Assembly: GCF_014931715.1 (NCBI RefSeq)
Contig: NZ_CP063164.1
Location: 930,001-994,000, forward strand
Length of the DNA stretch: 64,000 nt
Direction of reading: 5' to 3'
Source of the DNA: Sulfurovum indicum
GTDB taxonomy: Bacteria; Campylobacterota; Campylobacteria; Campylobacterales; Sulfurovaceae
Positions 13,685 through 22,907 of this stretch are shown one piece after another. The notes beneath the pieces are model-generated. The model did no database searches and had not been told where the DNA came from. It saw nothing but the letters and a program-made list of their open reading frames with translations. Both the position numbers and the translations under genes were made by a program. The stretch's first letter is position 1; each line of letters starts with the position of its first letter.

Positions 13685-14788
13685 CTAAAACCTCCCCTCC
13701 ATAAACCTTTCAAATATCTCTGTTACCAACTCAATTCTATCAGTAAAACTTTTTTTGGAAGCTCTTTCATGAATGGTGTGGTCGCCGTCTCCGTAAGGCC
13801 CCCAGCCGTCAAGTGTGGGTACGCCTTGTGAGGCGATGATATTGGCATCGCTTACACCGCCGCGTTTTTCCGTAGGGAGGGTGATGTTACAGAGTTGGTT
13901 GATCTTTTCTATGAAAGCTACCTGTTCGGGAGTAGGCTGCATGACATCTCTCTGGATGCCTCCACTGAGTTTGGATTCTGTGCCCTTCACATAGGAAGTA
14001 TTAACGATATCATCGACAGCAGCGAGTACACGGTCTCGCTCGTCGGTACTTGTGTAACGTAGTTCAAAAGTGAGTCTGGCTTTGGGAGAGATGGTGTTGG
14101 CACCGATGCCGCCTTCTATTTTTCCCACATTGACAGTAGTGCCTTTCTCAAGGTTGGTCAGGGCAACGAGTTTTTGGAGTTTATGTGCCGCTTCAAGGTT
14201 GGCATCTGCTCCTTTGTCATAATGATTTCCCGCATGGGCTGCTATGCCTTCAATATCGATGAAGAAAGTCCCCACCCCTTTACGACCGATGACCACTTCA
14301 TCATGTACTCCGGCTGCTTCAAAGACCATGCAGTAGTCGTACTCTTCTGCAAGTTTTGCCGAAAGGTGTTTGCTGTCGTCGCTGCCTGTCTCTTCGTCAC
14401 TGACGAGCAGAAAATCGATGTTGTGGATGGCTCCAAACTTTTTGTGAACATTTCGCAGTGCCTGAAGTGCAACGTAGTTGCCGCCTTTCATGTCGCAGAC
14501 TCCCGGTCCGTAGATCCACGCTTTATCCTCGCTGAAAGATTCAAAGGTATCCGGTGGGAAGACAGTGTCAAGATGTCCAAGCAGCAGAAGTTTTTTCCCC
14601 TCTTTTTCAGGAGCGGTCAGGTGCAGGTGATCGCCGATCTTCTCTCTGGGATAGCGGGTGAGAGTATAGCCGATCTCTTCAAGCCAATAGGCAAATATCT
14701 CACCGTTCCTGTCTACGCCCTCTTTGTTCTTTGTCCAGGAATTGATCTCAATGATCTGCTTCAACTCATCAAAACTCTGACTGCCCAT
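13685..14788 (-). CDS. M20 family metallopeptidase (glutamate carboxypeptidase-like)
   Basis: Zinc exopeptidase of the M20A group, whose CPG2 members cut C-terminal glutamate from folates and peptides. Di-zinc ligands can be followed: LLGHLDTVFP (His, Asp), VCDMKGG (bridging Asp), DEETGS (catalytic and ligand Glu), MVFEAAG (Glu) and DGDHTIHE (His). The dimerisation domain is between (GRKGVGTFFIDIEG). No signal peptide, so cytoplasmic. ATG 14788 has GGGAG at proper spacing; ATG 14791 and 14800 are alternatives. It lies divergent to two ATP-grasp ligases, which suggests that it removes what they add; this is inference. Confidence 0.88.
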   Translation of the reverse strand: MGSQSFDELKQIIEINSWTKNKEGVDRNGEIFAYWLEEIGYTLTRYPREKIGDHLHLTAPEKEGKKLLLLGHLDTVFPPDTFESFSEDKAWIYGPGVCDMKGGNYVALQALRNVHKKFGAIHNIDFLLVSDEETGSDDSKHLSAKLAEEYDYCMVFEAAGVHDEVVIGRKGVGTFFIDIEGIAAHAGNHYDKGADANLEAAHKLQKLVALTNLEKGTTVNVGKIEGGIGANTISPKARLTFELRYTSTDERDRVLAAVDDIVNTSYVKGTESKLSGGIQRDVMQPTPEQVAFIEKINQLCNITLPTEKRGGVSDANIIASQGVPTLDGWGPYGDGDHTIHERASKKSFTDRIELVTEIFERFMEGRF

Positions 14789-14892
14789 CATCTCTCCCAT
14801 TCTGTAATAGATTTGTTATCATTTTACTGAAGATATTTTAATAAAATATAGTAAAATAAGAGATTAAACTTTAATAATGGAGGATGGATCGA

Positions 14893-15804
14893 ATGGGTAG
14901 AACGGTCGGAATGTGGCTCTACAGTAACGGTGGCGGTGACAGAATACAGAAAAAGATGGTCAAAAGGCTGAAAGAGCGTGATATCGACGTGATAACAGAT
15001 ATCAACCTGCGTCATGCCATAGCAAAGAAAGGGCATATCTATCATGGAAAAACAAAGGTAGATCAGCTTGATCTTTTCTTTTCATACAATGCAGGAGAGC
15101 AGACACAGTACCAGGTCTTTTTATATCAGGCGCTCAACCGTGTTATTCCGATGATAAACTCCTATGATGCATTCGCTTTGACAGAGGACAAGTTCCAGAC
15201 TTCATTTCTTTTGCAGCAGCATGGTATCGCAACACCGGAGTTTCAGCTTTGCCATCGAGATGACTCCAAGCAGTTGGAACGTATCATGAAAAAATGGAGC
15301 AAAATGGTCTATAAACCTACTGACGGATGGGGTGGAGTAGGTTTGACAAAGATAGAGAACGAGGAAACACTCAATATGCTTCTTCCCTTTCTTAACCAGA
15401 TGGACCTTCGTTTCTTCTATGTAGAGAAATTTGTCAAGTATGACAATACTGATTTCCGTGTAGATATTGTAGATGGGCAGTTTGTTGGGTGTTACGGACG
15501 AAAAGCCGGTAAAAGAGACTGGCGTACCAATGTGACCAGCGGTGGTTCGGTCTTTTTGCGTGAGCCCAATGATGAAGTCGTCGAACTTGCTCTCAAGGCG
15601 GCAAAAGTGTGCGGTACGGATATTGCAGGGGTCGATATTATTTATGATCTGGAAAAAGAAGAGTATGTGGTGCTAGAGGTCAACGGAATTCCGGCATTTG
15701 CAACACCGGAGCAGGAGAAGATGGGACTTGACTTCAACAACAGAAAGATAGATCTGATCGTGGATCTTATAGACAGAAAAACAGCTAAAAAGAAAAACAA
15801 ATAA
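14893..15804 (+). CDS. RimK-like ATP-grasp ligase
   Basis: ATP-grasp enzymes of this group join an amino acid or peptide to a carboxylate through an acyl phosphate. An N-terminal pre-ATP-grasp region (residues 1-90) is followed by the ATP-binding lysines (KMVYKPTDGWGGVGLTK), the substrate-loop segment GRKAGKRDWRTNVTSGG, and the metal-binding VVLEVNGIPAF near the end. ATG 14893 is preferred over ATG 14884 because GGAGG touches the latter directly. 303 residues. Followed 11 bases later by a second, divergent ATP-grasp protein. Substrate unknown; RimK and MptN relatives add glutamate. Confidence 0.85.
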   Translation: MGRTVGMWLYSNGGGDRIQKKMVKRLKERDIDVITDINLRHAIAKKGHIYHGKTKVDQLDLFFSYNAGEQTQYQVFLYQALNRVIPMINSYDAFALTEDKFQTSFLLQQHGIATPEFQLCHRDDSKQLERIMKKWSKMVYKPTDGWGGVGLTKIENEETLNMLLPFLNQMDLRFFYVEKFVKYDNTDFRVDIVDGQFVGCYGRKAGKRDWRTNVTSGGSVFLREPNDEVVELALKAAKVCGTDIAGVDIIYDLEKEEYVVLEVNGIPAFATPEQEKMGLDFNNRKIDLIVDLIDRKTAKKKNK

Positions 15805-15815
15805 AAGGGGAACAA

Positions 15816-17246
15816 ATGGCAAAAAAGAATAAACAGCAAAAACTACCAAAACTCGGACTGCTCTATCTTGATCACGTATTGAGGTTTTTTGATAAAAGCA
15901 ACTTCAGAGGATGGCCGGACAAGATCGAGACTGTAGTCTATCACTGGAAGAATGACAAAGAGCGTTTTATCAGAGAAGTCAAAAGAAAGAAGATCGATAT
16001 TCTCATCGGAAATATTCCTGCAACGGCATATGAAACGTTCAGAGAGATTGCCAGAGAGCTTCCTCATGTGCAGTTCATCCCTTCTATGGATACACAGTTT
16101 GCCAACAAGTCCAAAGAGAACGTGACACGTTTTGCATGGAAGTACGATATTCCTGTACCAAAAACCTATATTTTCTATGACAGAAGCAAAGCGGAAAAAT
16201 TTATTGATTCTACAGAGTTTCCCAAGATCATCAAAAAGAGCTACGGTCCGTCAAATTATGGCGGATACTTTGTACATAAAGTTGACTCTGCACAGGAAGC
16301 GCATAACCTTCTGGCACAAAAAAAGTACCATCCGGTCTATATGCAGGATTTTGTACCCATGGAAGCGGATGTGCGTGTGATGCTCATCGGTCACAAGCCT
16401 GTATGTGCTTTCTGGAGACGGCCACCTGAAGGTGAATGGCTGACCAATACTTCCCAGGGAGGAAGCATAGACTATATGGATGTACCAAAAGAGCTGCTTG
16501 ATCTTGCGGTTAAAGTATCCAAGGCAGCCAATGCGGAGTATTGGGCATGTGATATTGCTGTAGGAGAGGATGGCAAGTACCGTATTCTGGAGTGCGCAAC
16601 AGCTTTTGCTGCCTTCCCGTATATCCGTGACTGGATAGGTCAGTATCTTATGTGGAAATTCTCCAACGGACGTTTCCCTCTTCCGAATATGCCTCTTTAC
16701 AACTGGGAAGAGCTAGGAAAAATGGACTCCAGCGTGCTCAGAACACTGCGTTACATTACATTTGGAAAATATACACCAAGTTATGACGGTGCCTATTTCC
16801 TTGACAAGAAGAGGAAAGAGACGGTTGAGGGTGAGATGTATCTGCATGAACTTGATGCGCTTTATCCTGTGCTTGATACCTTTACCCGAAACAAAGAGGA
16901 GTGGCCGAGTGAAAAATGGAATTTCCAGGACAACTATGGTAAAACACTGAGAAAGGTCCATGCCAGGAGCAATCCGAAATACAAAGAGGAAGATGAATCT
17001 TCAGAGAGTGCAGAGCAGAAGAATATCATTGAGCTCTCTGAGAAAAAAGTAAAGAAACTTCTAACCTCGGTTGAGGGTATCGGAAAGAAAAAAGCAGAAA
17101 AGATCATGGAAAAGTTCGATACAACAGAGCTGGTCCATGCGCTTGAAACAGCTCCGGAGAAGATAAGTGAGGAGTTCTCCTGGTTTAAAGACAAATTCCT
17201 CAAACGCCTGAAAGAGGAGTGGGCTGCTTTGAAAAATAAGCTTTAA
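15816..17246 (+). CDS. ATP-grasp protein with C-terminal helix-hairpin-helix domain
   Basis: A second ATP-grasp protein. After an N-terminal region (1-95), the fold is visible in EFPKIIKKSYGPSNYGGYFV, YMQDFVPMEADVRVMLIG, NTSQGGSIDYMD and YRILECATAFAAFP, where the usual 'LEVN' metal motif is changed to LECAT. About 90 residues of unknown type follow, then a charged linker (KEEDESSESAEQKN) and a helix-hairpin-helix (LLTSVEGIGKKKAEKIMEKF, residues ~410-435). 476 residues, longer than a RimK-type ligase. SD AAGGGGAA. HhH domains usually contact DNA or proteins. Partner of the preceding gene; the altered metal motif may mean changed or lost catalysis. Confidence 0.8.
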   Translation: MAKKNKQQKLPKLGLLYLDHVLRFFDKSNFRGWPDKIETVVYHWKNDKERFIREVKRKKIDILIGNIPATAYETFREIARELPHVQFIPSMDTQFANKSKENVTRFAWKYDIPVPKTYIFYDRSKAEKFIDSTEFPKIIKKSYGPSNYGGYFVHKVDSAQEAHNLLAQKKYHPVYMQDFVPMEADVRVMLIGHKPVCAFWRRPPEGEWLTNTSQGGSIDYMDVPKELLDLAVKVSKAANAEYWACDIAVGEDGKYRILECATAFAAFPYIRDWIGQYLMWKFSNGRFPLPNMPLYNWEELGKMDSSVLRTLRYITFGKYTPSYDGAYFLDKKRKETVEGEMYLHELDALYPVLDTFTRNKEEWPSEKWNFQDNYGKTLRKVHARSNPKYKEEDESSESAEQKNIIELSEKKVKKLLTSVEGIGKKKAEKIMEKFDTTELVHALETAPEKISEEFSWFKDKFLKRLKEEWAALKNKL

Positions 17247-17409
17247 GGGTGTAAACTTCGCCGTTTTTCCTCCTGCTGCAGGTACCTTCGCAGACACTGA
17301 TTGAGGAAAAGAACCCCTTTTACGGGGTGCATAGTTGAGCCTGTCTATGATAGGTTGAGATATGTGATTGATCAATAACAAAATCATTATATATGGAAGG
17401 CTGCAATAT

Positions 17410-19989
17410 ATGAAAAACCAATATATGTCTTATCAGGAGAGTTTAGACTTTCTTCATAAGATGGAAAAGCGATATCCTGACCTGATCGAAGTGATCAAAA
17501 TAGGTATGACCTACGAAGGTCGCGATATTGTTTTGGCGAAGATCTCCAAAAATGTTGAGCATGCCGATGAAAAACCGGCACTGCTCTATACGGGGAGTAT
17601 CCACGCGCGTGAATGGATAGGGCATGAACTGGCATTGAAGTTCATAGAACATGTTGCCAAAAACCAGGATGTAGATCCTGTACTGGAAAGAGCACTTACT
17701 GAGTCAACACTCTATATTGTTCCCTGTCTCAATCCTGACGGCTATGAATATTCGCGTAAACATTTCTCTTTCTGGCGTAAGAACAGACGCAAGAACTATG
17801 ACGGAACTTACGGGGTCGATCTGAACCGTAACTTCTCCATCGGTTTTAAAAAGATAAGCAATACAGCTTCCAATGTCTATGGTGGTGAAGAACCCTTCTC
17901 CGAAGCGGAGACAAGAGCTATCAAAGATTTTGTAGATACCCATGAGAACATCACCATTGCACTTGATTACCACTCCCAGGGGAATGTCTTCTTTCCGGCA
18001 CACAAATTTAAACATGAGGCAGAAATAGACGGGACCGATATGAATGTGATCTCTGCGAATATGAATGATGAGTTCGAGAAGATCACAGGGAGAAAATACG
18101 GCATACACCGTGGCAAACCGCCTGTGGCACTCATCAGCGGAAGCGGACGGGAGTATTACTACTCCAGAGGTATCAAAGCAATTGTTGTTGAGGTGGGGAC
18201 AAAGAACATCCCTGACTATATGAAGAGTATGAGCAGCAGCATCCATGAGAATATCCCTGCGCTCATCAGAACTTTTTCGGAAGTGGTCAACTACTCTGCA
18301 TATGCCCCAAGGCGGGTCGATGAGTTCAGGGTTGAAAAAGCCGAGCCAACCAGTGTGACACTGGTATGGAAATATGAGAAACGTGATGACATCTTTTTTG
18401 AGATCTACCGCAGTACCAAAGACAAAGATGCCTGTAACGAGCGTACGAAAGTCGGTATTTCCGGTGAGAACAGTTTTACCGATACAGATCTTGAGAGTTC
18501 GACCAATTACCACTATACCATCCGGGCTGTAAGTAAAAAAACAGGCTACAAGTCTCCTTTTGCACCGGTGGTCAAGGCACGAACGGCACTGGCGGAAGAT
18601 GAGTTCTTCCGTTTTCTCTTTGCGGTAAAAGAGGGGACAGGGTATGTCGGGCAGTACACACAGGAGCAGAACCGTGCGCACTTTGGACTCAACTCTCTTT
18701 TTGTCGGGATTAACAAATCCAAAGGGATCTGTGATGCGGTAGTGAGTTTCGATCTCAGTTCCATTCCGGAAAATGCTATCATTAAATCGGCGCGCTTTTA
18801 TCTTTATCCGATGAACCGTGTCGGCGCGAAGATAGAGAAATTCGGACAGTGGGACCTTAGCCTGCTTGAACCGGAAAGCTTTAGCGAGATCAGTGATTTT
18901 AATGAGATAGAGAAGGCAAAAGCCAAAGGGATCATCGGACAGGCGATCAAGTCACGGCAGTTGACACAGGGCATCTGGAATTTTTGGGAGTTCTCACAAC
19001 GAGAGTGCCAGCTGCTTGAAGAGGAGGTGGCAAACAAACAGGCTGTCTTCCGTATCGACGGGCCGAAGTATCTGCCAGACGGCGAAGACAGCCAGATGAT
19101 GCAGTTTGATATCGGATATGGGAAGTTCGGCGGAGGGATCCACTACCGTCCGATGCTTGACATCAAGTATACGATGAAGAATGAGAAGATCAAGCTGCCG
19201 GCACAGACACTTGCGAGCATCTCCAAAGAAGGAGTGGAAGAGGGTATACTGAAAAGCGGATTCGACGCCAACGGTGACAAAGTCTATGGCTATCTTAACT
19301 TCGATCTTGGACAGCTGCCCGAGCATGACAAAACGATGATCACACAGTGTGCTTTGAGAATACGCAACAAGAATATATTTAAGAACAGATCAGATGTACG
19401 TTTCTATATGGAGCTGGTGAAGCTTGACGAAGTGGGAACCTATGAGGATATTAAGAACCGTGAGAAGATAGAATATATCGGGTATGAAGTAGCTGAGTCC
19501 GATCTTAACAGCAAAGAGTGTCAGTACTTCAATTTCGATACACTCTCAAGGAACATCCTTGACCAGTTGCACCAGGAGGGTAAGACCCTGAAACTGGTCA
19601 TCAAGCCGACCTCTGCCTTGGGGGCAAGAAGTCGTATTACTGAGTGGCAGGAGAGTGTAGAGCTGATCGTAAAGTACATTGAAAAACGCAGACATCCGGC
19701 AGCACCGGTTGAGAACCTGAAGATCTCCAAGGAGAACGGCATGATCAAACTCAGCTGGGACAAAGTGGACGACGAAGCCATTAAGGGCTACTATGTTGTA
19801 CGTAACAGTTTCCATCCGCCAAGACACTTTATGGACGGAGTCAAACTCTATGGCGGTAAAGATACCTGGACCTATGATAATTTTGCCTCTTTTGACAAAG
19901 AAAAATATTATGCGGTATTCACTTATGATGATGTACCGAACTTCTCTGAGGCTACTGTAGTGCGGTATGATCCTTTAGAGAGGTACTAG
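17410..19989 (+). CDS. M14 zinc carboxypeptidase with FN3 and DNRLRE-like modules
   Basis: Removes C-terminal residues. The catalytic domain (about 1-300) shows SIHAREWIGHE (His and Glu ligands, Arg), VDLNRNFS, LDYHSQGNVFFP (third ligand His) and IVVEVGT (catalytic Glu). It is followed by an FN3 domain (~310-405), two similar beta-sandwich modules with 'F..V.EGTGYVGQY...VSFDLSSIPENA.I..A' and 'YLNFDLGQLPE...ALRIRN' patterns typical of DNRLRE domains, and a last FN3-like domain. No signal peptide or anchor is seen, which is odd for such modules. ATG 17410 has GGAAGG; a TTG at 17368 has none. About 859 residues. Confidence 0.83.
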   Translation: MKNQYMSYQESLDFLHKMEKRYPDLIEVIKIGMTYEGRDIVLAKISKNVEHADEKPALLYTGSIHAREWIGHELALKFIEHVAKNQDVDPVLERALTESTLYIVPCLNPDGYEYSRKHFSFWRKNRRKNYDGTYGVDLNRNFSIGFKKISNTASNVYGGEEPFSEAETRAIKDFVDTHENITIALDYHSQGNVFFPAHKFKHEAEIDGTDMNVISANMNDEFEKITGRKYGIHRGKPPVALISGSGREYYYSRGIKAIVVEVGTKNIPDYMKSMSSSIHENIPALIRTFSEVVNYSAYAPRRVDEFRVEKAEPTSVTLVWKYEKRDDIFFEIYRSTKDKDACNERTKVGISGENSFTDTDLESSTNYHYTIRAVSKKTGYKSPFAPVVKARTALAEDEFFRFLFAVKEGTGYVGQYTQEQNRAHFGLNSLFVGINKSKGICDAVVSFDLSSIPENAIIKSARFYLYPMNRVGAKIEKFGQWDLSLLEPESFSEISDFNEIEKAKAKGIIGQAIKSRQLTQGIWNFWEFSQRECQLLEEEVANKQAVFRIDGPKYLPDGEDSQMMQFDIGYGKFGGGIHYRPMLDIKYTMKNEKIKLPAQTLASISKEGVEEGILKSGFDANGDKVYGYLNFDLGQLPEHDKTMITQCALRIRNKNIFKNRSDVRFYMELVKLDEVGTYEDIKNREKIEYIGYEVAESDLNSKECQYFNFDTLSRNILDQLHQEGKTLKLVIKPTSALGARSRITEWQESVELIVKYIEKRRHPAAPVENLKISKENGMIKLSWDKVDDEAIKGYYVVRNSFHPPRHFMDGVKLYGGKDTWTYDNFASFDKEKYYAVFTYDDVPNFSEATVVRYDPLERY

Positions 19990-20096: not shown

Positions 20097-21503
20097 ATGA
20101 TGAATGAAAAACCGATACTCAAACAACTGCTGGAAAGCTCTGAAGGGAAAAAGCTGCTCTTTCTCGGGAAAGAGGAGATATTTACTGCCAAAGAGATCGA
20201 GCGGTTTTTAAAAAAGTACAAGATCACTATGACCAAATATCTTGAAGAGGGTGTTGTTGGTACGGTAGAACACCATCGACTCAACCCTGTTGAAGAGGAT
20301 ATCTCCAATGATGCCTATGAGCAGGGAGTTCCTGCCTATAAGCTGACCGAGTTCGAGCAGCTTCTCTCCGAAGAGATCGATGATGATGCATTGCTGATGG
20401 CGATCAAACTCGGAAATGATCAGGAGCGGGTGGTCAGGCTTCTTGGCAATGAGCACCTTACCGATACACTCTTTGTCAGACTGCTTAAACTCTATGTGTT
20501 TGATGAAGAGGAAGAGGATAACCGTCAGGATAGAGATGTCATTATGTATACACTTCGCCGATATATTGACATTAAGCCCAATGAAGAGGACCTGCTCTAC
20601 AGCTACCTGACCCTGCGCCGATTGGCGACAGAAGCAACAGACCCAGAACTTCTGACAGCATTGATGGGATTCCCGAATTTTGAGTTTCTTGTACGCGGAA
20701 AAGAGAAGATCACATTGCGCCAGACCATTGCCAGAAACCCGGTGATTAATGAATCACTCATTAGAAAACTGCTTTCATTCAGAGAGAGAGGGGTTGAAAG
20801 AGCACTGGCCGGCAACAGCAGTGTTCCGGTAGAGGTACTGAAGCATCTGCTTGCCAAAAATGACAGTGAGATCGAGAAGGCACTCGCATCCAATCCTGCA
20901 ATAGACGATATGCTTTTTGGTGCTCTGCTTGAAAAAGAGGAGGAGGTTGCAGCTCTGCTTCTGCTGCACCAGCCAATAGACAGCGGTCGTTTGGAACAGG
21001 TGCTTGGTGCCAATATTGATCAAAAGCTCTTTAGTCTGATCGGTGCGAACGAAAAGCTTTCGGATGATGTGGTGTCGGCACTTATGGAAAAAGGTGACAA
21101 AAATGTTATTGAAGCATTAAGCGGCAACAGAATGGTTCCTCCTGCTGTACTTGAAATGATCTATCAGAGTGATCACTCAGGTAGTGTCATACCTTTGCTA
21201 AAAAATCCTGCCACACCGGTTTGGATACTTGAAGCACTTTATGATGAGCATAGGAAGGATAAGAGGATATTGGCATCCCTGGCATACAATCCGTCTGCTC
21301 CTGAGAAGATACTGCGGGAGCTTTTTGAAAGAGATGATCTGGAGATCAACCGGGGTTTGGCAACCAATGCTTCACTGCCGTTGGAACTGCTAGATATCCT
21401 CAAGATCGATACACGTTTGCAGAATGAACTGGCGCAGAATGAGAATCTTGCAAAATCGTATGAGCAGGTTTTGAATCAAAATAAAGCAATGATGAACGTC
21501 TGA
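20097..21503 (+). CDS. leucine-rich-repeat-variant/HEAT-like repeat protein
   Basis: No enzyme motif. Residues ~1-60 look like a BRCT-like fold (KKLLFLGKEEIFTAKEIERF). From ~190 to the end, about nine helical repeats of 20-25 residues follow the pattern 'aLA.N..vP.eiL..L....d', e.g. RALAGNSSVPVEVLKHLL, ALASNPAIDDMLFGALL, SLAYNPSAPEKILRELF and GLATNASLPLELLDIL. This is the LRV/HEAT-like solenoid type. 468 residues, cytoplasmic, acidic. It lies 54 bases before a MoxR ATPase gene, so a role as adaptor or substrate of that ATPase is likely but inferred. Confidence 0.7.
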   Translation: MMNEKPILKQLLESSEGKKLLFLGKEEIFTAKEIERFLKKYKITMTKYLEEGVVGTVEHHRLNPVEEDISNDAYEQGVPAYKLTEFEQLLSEEIDDDALLMAIKLGNDQERVVRLLGNEHLTDTLFVRLLKLYVFDEEEEDNRQDRDVIMYTLRRYIDIKPNEEDLLYSYLTLRRLATEATDPELLTALMGFPNFEFLVRGKEKITLRQTIARNPVINESLIRKLLSFRERGVERALAGNSSVPVEVLKHLLAKNDSEIEKALASNPAIDDMLFGALLEKEEEVAALLLLHQPIDSGRLEQVLGANIDQKLFSLIGANEKLSDDVVSALMEKGDKNVIEALSGNRMVPPAVLEMIYQSDHSGSVIPLLKNPATPVWILEALYDEHRKDKRILASLAYNPSAPEKILRELFERDDLEINRGLATNASLPLELLDILKIDTRLQNELAQNENLAKSYEQVLNQNKAMMNV

Positions 21504-21556
21504 ACAATGAGTAACGGAGTAATGAGAAATAAGGAACCAAAAAGGATGTATATATC

Positions 21557-22561
21557 ATGAAAGCGAGTAATATTACAAAGGTCATTGATAAGCTCATCGA
21601 CCGTCAGCTGCCTGTGTTCGTCTGGGGTGCGCCGGGGATCGGCAAGTCCTCCATTGTCAAACAGATCGCAGAGTATAAGGAGCTGGAGTTCCTTGATCTA
21701 CGGCTCTCCCTGCTTGATCCTACCGATCTGAAGGGTATCCCGTTCTTCAATGCCAAGACCCAGGAAGGGGTCTGGGCAAAGCCAAGCTTTCTTCCTTCCG
21801 ATCCTGACTCTAAAGGGATCCTCTTTCTTGATGAGATCAATACAGCGCCCCCGGCGGTACAGGCTTCAGCCTATCAGTTGATACTGGACAGAAAAGTGGG
21901 GGAGTATGAACTTCCCAAGGGGTGGAGCATCATAGCGGCAGGGAACCGTGAGAATGACCGCGGTGTTGTCTACAGGATGCCTCCGCCGCTTGCCAACCGT
22001 TTCGTACACTTTGAGATGGAGGTGGATTTTGACGACTGGAAGGCATGGGCGTATAGTGCCGGGATAGAGAGTGCCATCATCGGCTATCTTGCCTATGACA
22101 AGTCGATGCTTTTTACTTTTGATCCGACTTCCAACGAAAAAGCTTTTGCGACACCAAGAAGCTGGGAATATGTCGACAGTATTGTCAAATCCGGTATCGA
22201 TACGGATCTAATATTAGATAGTATCAGCGGAGCTGTAGGGCGTGAGGCGGCAGTAGGCTACAGCAGTTTCAAAAAGGTTATGAAGCAGCTGCCGGATCTG
22301 AATACCATACTCGACGGTACACTGACCGAGTTGGAAGAGGAAGACCCCAAAGTACTGATGGCACTTGCCATCGGTCTGGTTAATGCCCTCAGAGAGAACC
22401 CGAGTGATGAAGCCATAGAGCATGTGCTTGATTTTTCATTGCAGCTTCCGGGTGAATTCGCCATTATGCTGGTGAAAGATATGCAGCAGAATGGCATAGA
22501 TGTAGAAGGCTCGGCTGCATGGAGTGAGTGGGTTAGAAAGTTCGCTTATCTGCTAAGTTGA
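21557..22561 (+). CDS. MoxR-family AAA+ ATPase
   Basis: Chaperone-like ATPase. Walker A GAPGIGKSS (residues ~25-33), Walker B ILFLDEIN, sensor 1 IIAAGNREND, and an arginine-finger region PPPLANRFVHFE. 334 residues. SD AAAAAGGAT. MoxR proteins normally work with a VWA-domain partner encoded next door; here the nearest VWA protein is 4.3 kb away on the same strand (26908), and the immediate upstream gene encodes a repeat protein. A cochaperone-type relation to both is plausible and unproven. Confidence 0.85.
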   Translation: MKASNITKVIDKLIDRQLPVFVWGAPGIGKSSIVKQIAEYKELEFLDLRLSLLDPTDLKGIPFFNAKTQEGVWAKPSFLPSDPDSKGILFLDEINTAPPAVQASAYQLILDRKVGEYELPKGWSIIAAGNRENDRGVVYRMPPPLANRFVHFEMEVDFDDWKAWAYSAGIESAIIGYLAYDKSMLFTFDPTSNEKAFATPRSWEYVDSIVKSGIDTDLILDSISGAVGREAAVGYSSFKKVMKQLPDLNTILDGTLTELEEEDPKVLMALAIGLVNALRENPSDEAIEHVLDFSLQLPGEFAIMLVKDMQQNGIDVEGSAAWSEWVRKFAYLLS

Positions 22562-22583: not shown

Positions 22584-22907
22584 ATGATGTCAAGTATACT
22601 CTACTGCATTGCCCAGTTTACACCTAAAGAGGGGAAGTTCGATGCTTTGTTTGAACGTCTAAAAGCGTTGGAGCCGGATACACTGAGAGAAGAGGGGTGT
22701 CTGCGTTACCGTGTGACGAAACATATAGAGAATCCGTTTGCTCCGGGTGAGAGTATGCCTATTGTTTTCAATGAAGCATGGGCGAGTGTTGAATACTTTG
22801 AACGGCACTGCCAACGTAAGGAGATAGTCGAGTTCTTTGAGCAGGAGTGTCTCAGTCCAGACGGTATGGTTGCTGCATACAATGTAACCGCTTACCGTGA
22901 CGAGTAG
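22584..22907 (+). CDS. ABM-domain (antibiotic biosynthesis monooxygenase-like) protein
   Basis: 107 residues with the dimeric ferredoxin-like ABM pattern: an initial strand ILYCIAQFTPKEGK, the motif EEGCLRYRVTKH, then NEAWASVEYFERHCQRKEI, typical of the YgiN/quinone monooxygenase group. Function in this family ranges from quinol oxidation to heme degradation, and no further choice can be made. Directly after the MoxR gene (22 bases) with SD AAAGGA; two ATG codons in a row at 22584/22587. Confidence 0.8.
   Translation: MMSSILYCIAQFTPKEGKFDALFERLKALEPDTLREEGCLRYRVTKHIENPFAPGESMPIVFNEAWASVEYFERHCQRKEIVEFFEQECLSPDGMVAAYNVTAYRDE

Follow-up and report, generated by a model that had tools for sequence, protein, structure and literature searches.

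In eukaryotes, protein glutamylation has been studied in depth on tubulin, where dedicated enzymes write and erase it; in bacteria, the main described case that we found is RimK/RimB. In the RimABK system of Pseudomonas, the ATP-grasp glutamate ligase RimK acts on ribosomal protein S6 and a dedicated protease, the retropepsin-like aspartic endopeptidase RimB, removes the added glutamates; the system is cytoplasmic and linked to the ribosome (PMC11957791, PMC10092738). The eukaryotic TTLL polyglutamylases and CCP deglutamylases combine an ATP-grasp writer with an acid-specific eraser of the M14D type. One or two ATP-grasp glutamate ligases also act on carboxyl groups in coenzyme synthesis, as do MyfA/MyfB, MptN and CofF; we know of no dedicated carboxypeptidases that form part of these pathways. 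Finally, an ATP-grasp enzyme and an M20-type hydrolase occur together in the LysX/LysW/LysK pathway.

How does the locus described here compare? The window, which is the whole stretch of 64,000 nucleotides of Sulfurovum indicum DNA that was analysed, comes from a complete genome of 2.21 Mb and contains four adjacent genes, encoding an M20 peptidase, two ATP-grasp proteins (AG1 and AG2) and an M14 carboxypeptidase. RimK/RimB is the closest bacterial pair, although RimABK has one ligase and an aspartic endopeptidase, whereas this set has two ATP-grasp proteins and two metallo-carboxypeptidases, with no aspartic protease among the four genes. TTLL and CCP are closest in logic, but the M14 enzyme here is of the carboxypeptidase A/B type and not M14D, and the putative writer is RimK-like. 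The initial annotation knew of no described system with exactly this set, and none was found in the openly licensed literature searched. We regard it as an evenly balanced proposition that the four genes are a single cytoplasmic module that reversibly attaches acidic residues, glutamate being the most likely, to carboxyl groups at chain ends or in side chains.

Gene organization

The features of the locus are listed in Table 1. An M20 gene placed head-to-head with two ATP-grasp genes and followed by an M14 gene had been read from the sequence, and Pfam profiles bear this out for all four, with E-values of 4.7e-22 for M20, 6.1e-22 and 1.7e-16 for the two RimK-like ATP-grasp genes, and 7.9e-57 for M14. 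M20 and AG1 diverge from an 83-base gap, and 11 bases separate AG1 from AG2. A contig labelled Sulfurovum sp. matches the four-gene set at 98-100%.

Table 1. Features of the four-gene locus, in positions of the window
Feature	Position	Strand	Remarks
M20 metallopeptidase	13685..14800	-	closest solved structure is carboxypeptidase G2; metal and catalytic residues invariant
Promoter-like site TTTACT-18-TATAGT	14823..14852	+	candidate for AG1, in the 83-base M20/AG1 gap; consensus match only
AG1, RimK/MptN-like ATP-grasp ligase	14884..15804	+	canonical D, E-x-N metal site; alternative start at 14893
AG2, second RimK/LysX-like ATP-grasp protein	15816..17246	+	C-terminal helix-hairpin-helix tail
AG2 residues 259-261, Glu-Cys-Ala at the Glu-x-Asn position	16590..16598	+	invariant in 112 sequences
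AG2 C-terminal helix-hairpin-helix region	17040..17243	+	weak in the window protein
M14 zinc carboxypeptidase	17410..19989	+	lacks a pro-domain and a signal peptide; fn3 and DNRLRE-type beta domains come after the catalytic part
M14 Arg247 codon, aligned with carboxypeptidase A/B specificity position 255	18148..18150	+	Arg in 91 of 91 sequences

The longest frame for M14 would start at TTG 17368. This start was rejected, as the conserved protein begins at the equivalent of ATG 17410 in all aligned orthologues. In several genomes M14 starts inside AG2, with an overlap of 4-17 bases that leaves no room for a signal peptide. The earlier observation that none of the four proteins carries a signal peptide holds, no Sec signal being found in any of them. 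A link with phages or defence was considered and discarded: PADLOC models gave no match to any of the four proteins, and no relatives of AG2 were found on viral contigs.

Two further genes follow M14 in the window (20097-22561), encoding a leucine-rich-variant repeat protein and a MoxR-type AAA ATPase; apart from the window genome itself, only its close relatives were seen to have this pair downstream of the set. Beyond it lies a gene (22584-22907) which we take to be similar to antibiotic-biosynthesis-monooxygenase (ABM) domain genes. Elsewhere, at L218:3548-7501 and L219:5437-9349, M14 overlaps an ABM domain gene, with rpsF and ssb coming next.

Conservation and co-inheritance

The conserved neighbourhood that the initial annotation proposed to look for exists, and is stronger than expected. 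The order M20-AG1-AG2-M14 is kept throughout Sulfurovum and in several other families of Campylobacterota, in many genera, and removal of near-identical sequences leaves 55 loci that have all four genes. In some families (e.g., f4 and f16), M20 runs in the same direction as the other three genes. The set has also been found outside the phylum, on replicon pDA100 of Photobacterium sp. DA100 (Gammaproteobacteria), in the Sulfurovum layout of M20 on the minus strand with AG1, AG2 and M14 on the plus strand; the proteins are 50-57% identical to their Sulfurovum counterparts. Among the best 80 of 349 AG2 relatives in named genomes, all are Campylobacterota as far as they are labelled.

Do the four genes belong together, or do they simply lie side by side? 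In a survey of 300 Campylobacterales genomes, with the window genome counted, AG2 and AG1 are each present in 78 and M14 in 80; 76 genomes have all three. When the window genome is left out, AG2 is found in 77 and M14 in 79, with an overlap of 77, which is far beyond chance. At least 13 genomes of this survey have the genes far apart or on different contigs, and the set is nonetheless complete. A sample of 150 genomes from the phylum agrees: an identical group of 14 carries intact AG2 and intact M14, AG1 is found in this group and in one further genome, and full-strength M20 in the group and in two further genomes. Common descent raises such counts, yet an association that survives repeated separation of the genes is difficult to account for unless they share a function, and the four genes form one functional unit.

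Loss of the set has left traces. Genome G089, of the Sulfurimonas type, retains an AG2 pseudogene (L184:7068-7476), in which a large internal deletion has joined the first 90 residues to the helix-hairpin-helix tail; this remnant sits between efp and dnaE, and AG1, M14 and M20 are absent. In G029, all that is left is a 127-residue scrap of M14 with stops. G044 (L176:1567-3923) has only M20 and AG1, followed near the contig end by an open reading frame of 95 residues without a Pfam match.

The ATP-grasp proteins

The solved structure nearest to AG1 is that of the S6-glutamate ligase RimK. The ATP-binding lysines and the D and E-x-N metal ligands of AG1 are invariant in 105 sequences, as expected of an ATP-grasp ligase (this and the other alignments include sequences from the same genome present in two collections). 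Its assignment to a known subfamily is less straightforward. AG1 scores 135 bits against TIGR00768, just under the cut-off of 143.4, and 55.6 bits against PRK10446 (cut-off 331); neither model places it among the RimK or ribosomal S6-glutamate ligases. Its best curated match is MptN, a ligase acting on a small cofactor, at 146.9 bits, far below its cut-off of 350. That AG1 falls below every curated cut-off, and that MptN is the best match, both count against the reading as a reversible glutamylation module.

AG2 is more unusual. Its ATP-grasp part resembles LysX and RimK, scoring 83.2 bits against TIGR00768, with the same cut-off of 143.4. The ATP-binding lysines, Asp246 and Glu259 are invariant in 112 sequences; in every one of these, E-C-A stands in place of E-x-N, with alanine at the asparagine that usually provides the third metal ligand. 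The active sites of the set are otherwise intact, and the lack of this asparagine counts against reversible glutamylation. The structure model of AG2 is poor (pLDDT 58). The helix-hairpin-helix tail is strong and doubled in L053 (4e-27), and was not detected in L175 or Photobacterium.

It is plausible, if rather unlikely, that AG2 has no ligase activity and serves AG1 as an ATP-binding partner or as the subunit that targets it, which would leave a single writer enzyme. The invariant alanine, the presence of helix-hairpin-helix tails in several lineages, and the G044 genome, with its AG1 and M20 in the absence of AG2, all agree with this. Against it stand the invariant ATP-binding lysines, Asp246 and Glu259, the better conservation of the catalytic domain than of the tail, and the location of AG2 apart from AG1 in Sulfurimonas. 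Such a role would be compatible with reversible glutamylation of a macromolecule and equally with the modification of a cofactor.

The peptidases

Carboxypeptidase G2 cleaves glutamate from folates, and it is the nearest relative of M20 among solved structures (2.4e-41, with the metal residues aligned). These residues are invariant in 86 sequences, one gap excepted, and M20 can be classed as a glutamate carboxypeptidase of the G2 type by its closest solved relative and conserved metal site, although it lies below every NCBIfam cut-off among the matches listed. The kinship supports a predicted acid specificity on the eraser side.

The M14 protein is a carboxypeptidase A/B-type enzyme with a long C-terminal part. 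Surface proteins are the more usual carriers of DNRLRE domains, and in the window (17410-19989) an enzyme without a signal peptide has them, which counts against the glutamylation reading. In 91 aligned sequences, the zinc ligands and the equivalents of Arg127, Asn144, Arg145 and Glu270 are invariant, as is an arginine at position 255, the last being the mark of acid-specific enzymes. The equivalent of Tyr248 is variable or missing in the same alignment, which counts against the glutamylation reading. Position 255 was assigned by alignment to CPB2 and CPA4, and rests on sequence because the structure model of M14 is weak in the active-site segments.

What would an arginine at this position mean? 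In carboxypeptidase O, Arg255 confers specificity for acidic C-terminal residues, and a paralogue from Xenopus that also has this residue cleaves Glu-Glu substrates and not Phe-Phe (PMC9925722). The conserved arginine thus supports a predicted acidic specificity for M14. Like M14, the human enzyme has Arg255 and lacks a pro-domain in most orthologues; unlike M14, it is a secreted, GPI-anchored animal protein, and the two are only about a quarter identical.

Neighbouring genes and candidate targets

When members of the set have moved or become separated, some of the genes beside them are translation genes in some lineages. The efp gene lies directly upstream of AG2 in Sulfurimonas (L050, L126, L136, L206 and L208) and adjoins M14-AG1-M20 in L225. 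The genes rpsP-rimM-trmD-rplS are upstream of M20-AG1-M14 in L173 and L174, and of the full M20-AG1-AG2-M14 set in L175. Similarly, yidC-jag is upstream of AG2 in L209, and M14 lies two genes upstream of rpsF and ssb in L218 and L219. Some of these gene names were read from the sequence and not from a profile scan. The pattern hints at a connection with translation; neighbours vary between lineages, and the many that are unrelated to translation count against such a link.

Carriers of the set and genomes that lack it have similar S6 C-terminal tails, which again counts against the preferred reading. EF-P was considered as a target and set aside for want of an exclusive pattern: its PGKGAAF loop is identical in set carriers and in the L184 genome, which has lost the set, and no match to the EF-P lysine ligase EpmA exceeded the cut-off in any of the 16 genomes tested.

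Is the substrate a macromolecule or a small molecule? The main rival to the preferred reading is that AG1 and AG2 extend a cofactor or peptide metabolite with an oligoglutamyl tail, in the manner of MptN, CofF and MyfA/MyfB, and that M20 and M14 shorten or recycle it. MptN as the best curated match of AG1 and a folate-cleaving enzyme as the nearest relative of M20 fit this proposal. Two ligases acting in succession on methylofuran have been published (PMC8141765). Yet no cofactor biosynthesis gene recurs beside the set in the neighbourhoods examined, the recognizable neighbours that do recur are translation genes, and a helix-hairpin-helix tail would be odd for a cofactor ligase. We consider a small-molecule target possible but fairly unlikely.

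Peptide salvage commonly employs M14 and M20 peptidases, and fn3 and DNRLRE domains are often extracellular; from this background, it could be argued that unrelated peptidases adjoin the ligases by chance, or that M14 is secreted, perhaps by a route that needs no signal peptide. The near-perfect co-occurrence of unlinked genes contradicts this view, the overlapping genes and the absence of a signal peptide also count against it, and it is very improbable. The most improbable explanation is amino-acid biosynthesis on a carrier protein, which was rejected for LysW-dependent lysine or arginine synthesis: both ATP-grasp proteins are similar to LysX, and [LysW]-lysine hydrolase is a weak match of M20, but that pathway has no M14 enzyme and the genome has no match to the LysW carrier model PF21344, which detects the carrier in control genomes.

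A proposed model of reversible glutamylation

Under the preferred reading, the four proteins would write and erase glutamate on a macromolecule. AG1 would be the catalytic ATP-grasp ligase, activating a carboxylate as an acyl phosphate and coupling it to glutamate through the amino group of the latter. AG2, likewise ATP-binding and ligase-like, would be a second subunit that begins the chain or recruits the target; in proteins that have the helix-hairpin-helix tail, this may anchor AG2 to nucleic acid, the ribosome for instance. M14 would then trim acidic C-terminal residues one by one, and M20 would remove the last glutamate or recycle short glutamyl peptides. We infer that glutamate is the residue added, that the steps follow this order, and that the target is a macromolecule in translation.

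The proposal that the four proteins make and trim a peptide tag or small peptide in the cytoplasm had already been put forward in the initial annotation. It has gained from the conserved neighbourhood, the co-occurrence even of unlinked genes, Arg255 of M14, the kinship of M20 with carboxypeptidase G2 and the absence of signal peptides; the altered metal site of AG2 speaks against it. A more specific version is tentative, and we hold it to be unlikely: the set would be a bacterial counterpart of TTLL and CCP that dynamically tags a component of the translation machinery (S6, EF-P or some other protein associated with the ribosome) with glutamate, using a nucleic-acid-binding tail as tether, and that has passed between phyla as a unit.

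The glutamylation reading predicts that the M14 eraser, with its acid-specificity arginine, releases C-terminal Glu or Asp. If true, the set would constitute a second, enzymatically different bacterial glutamylation system, conserved in a large and ecologically important group.
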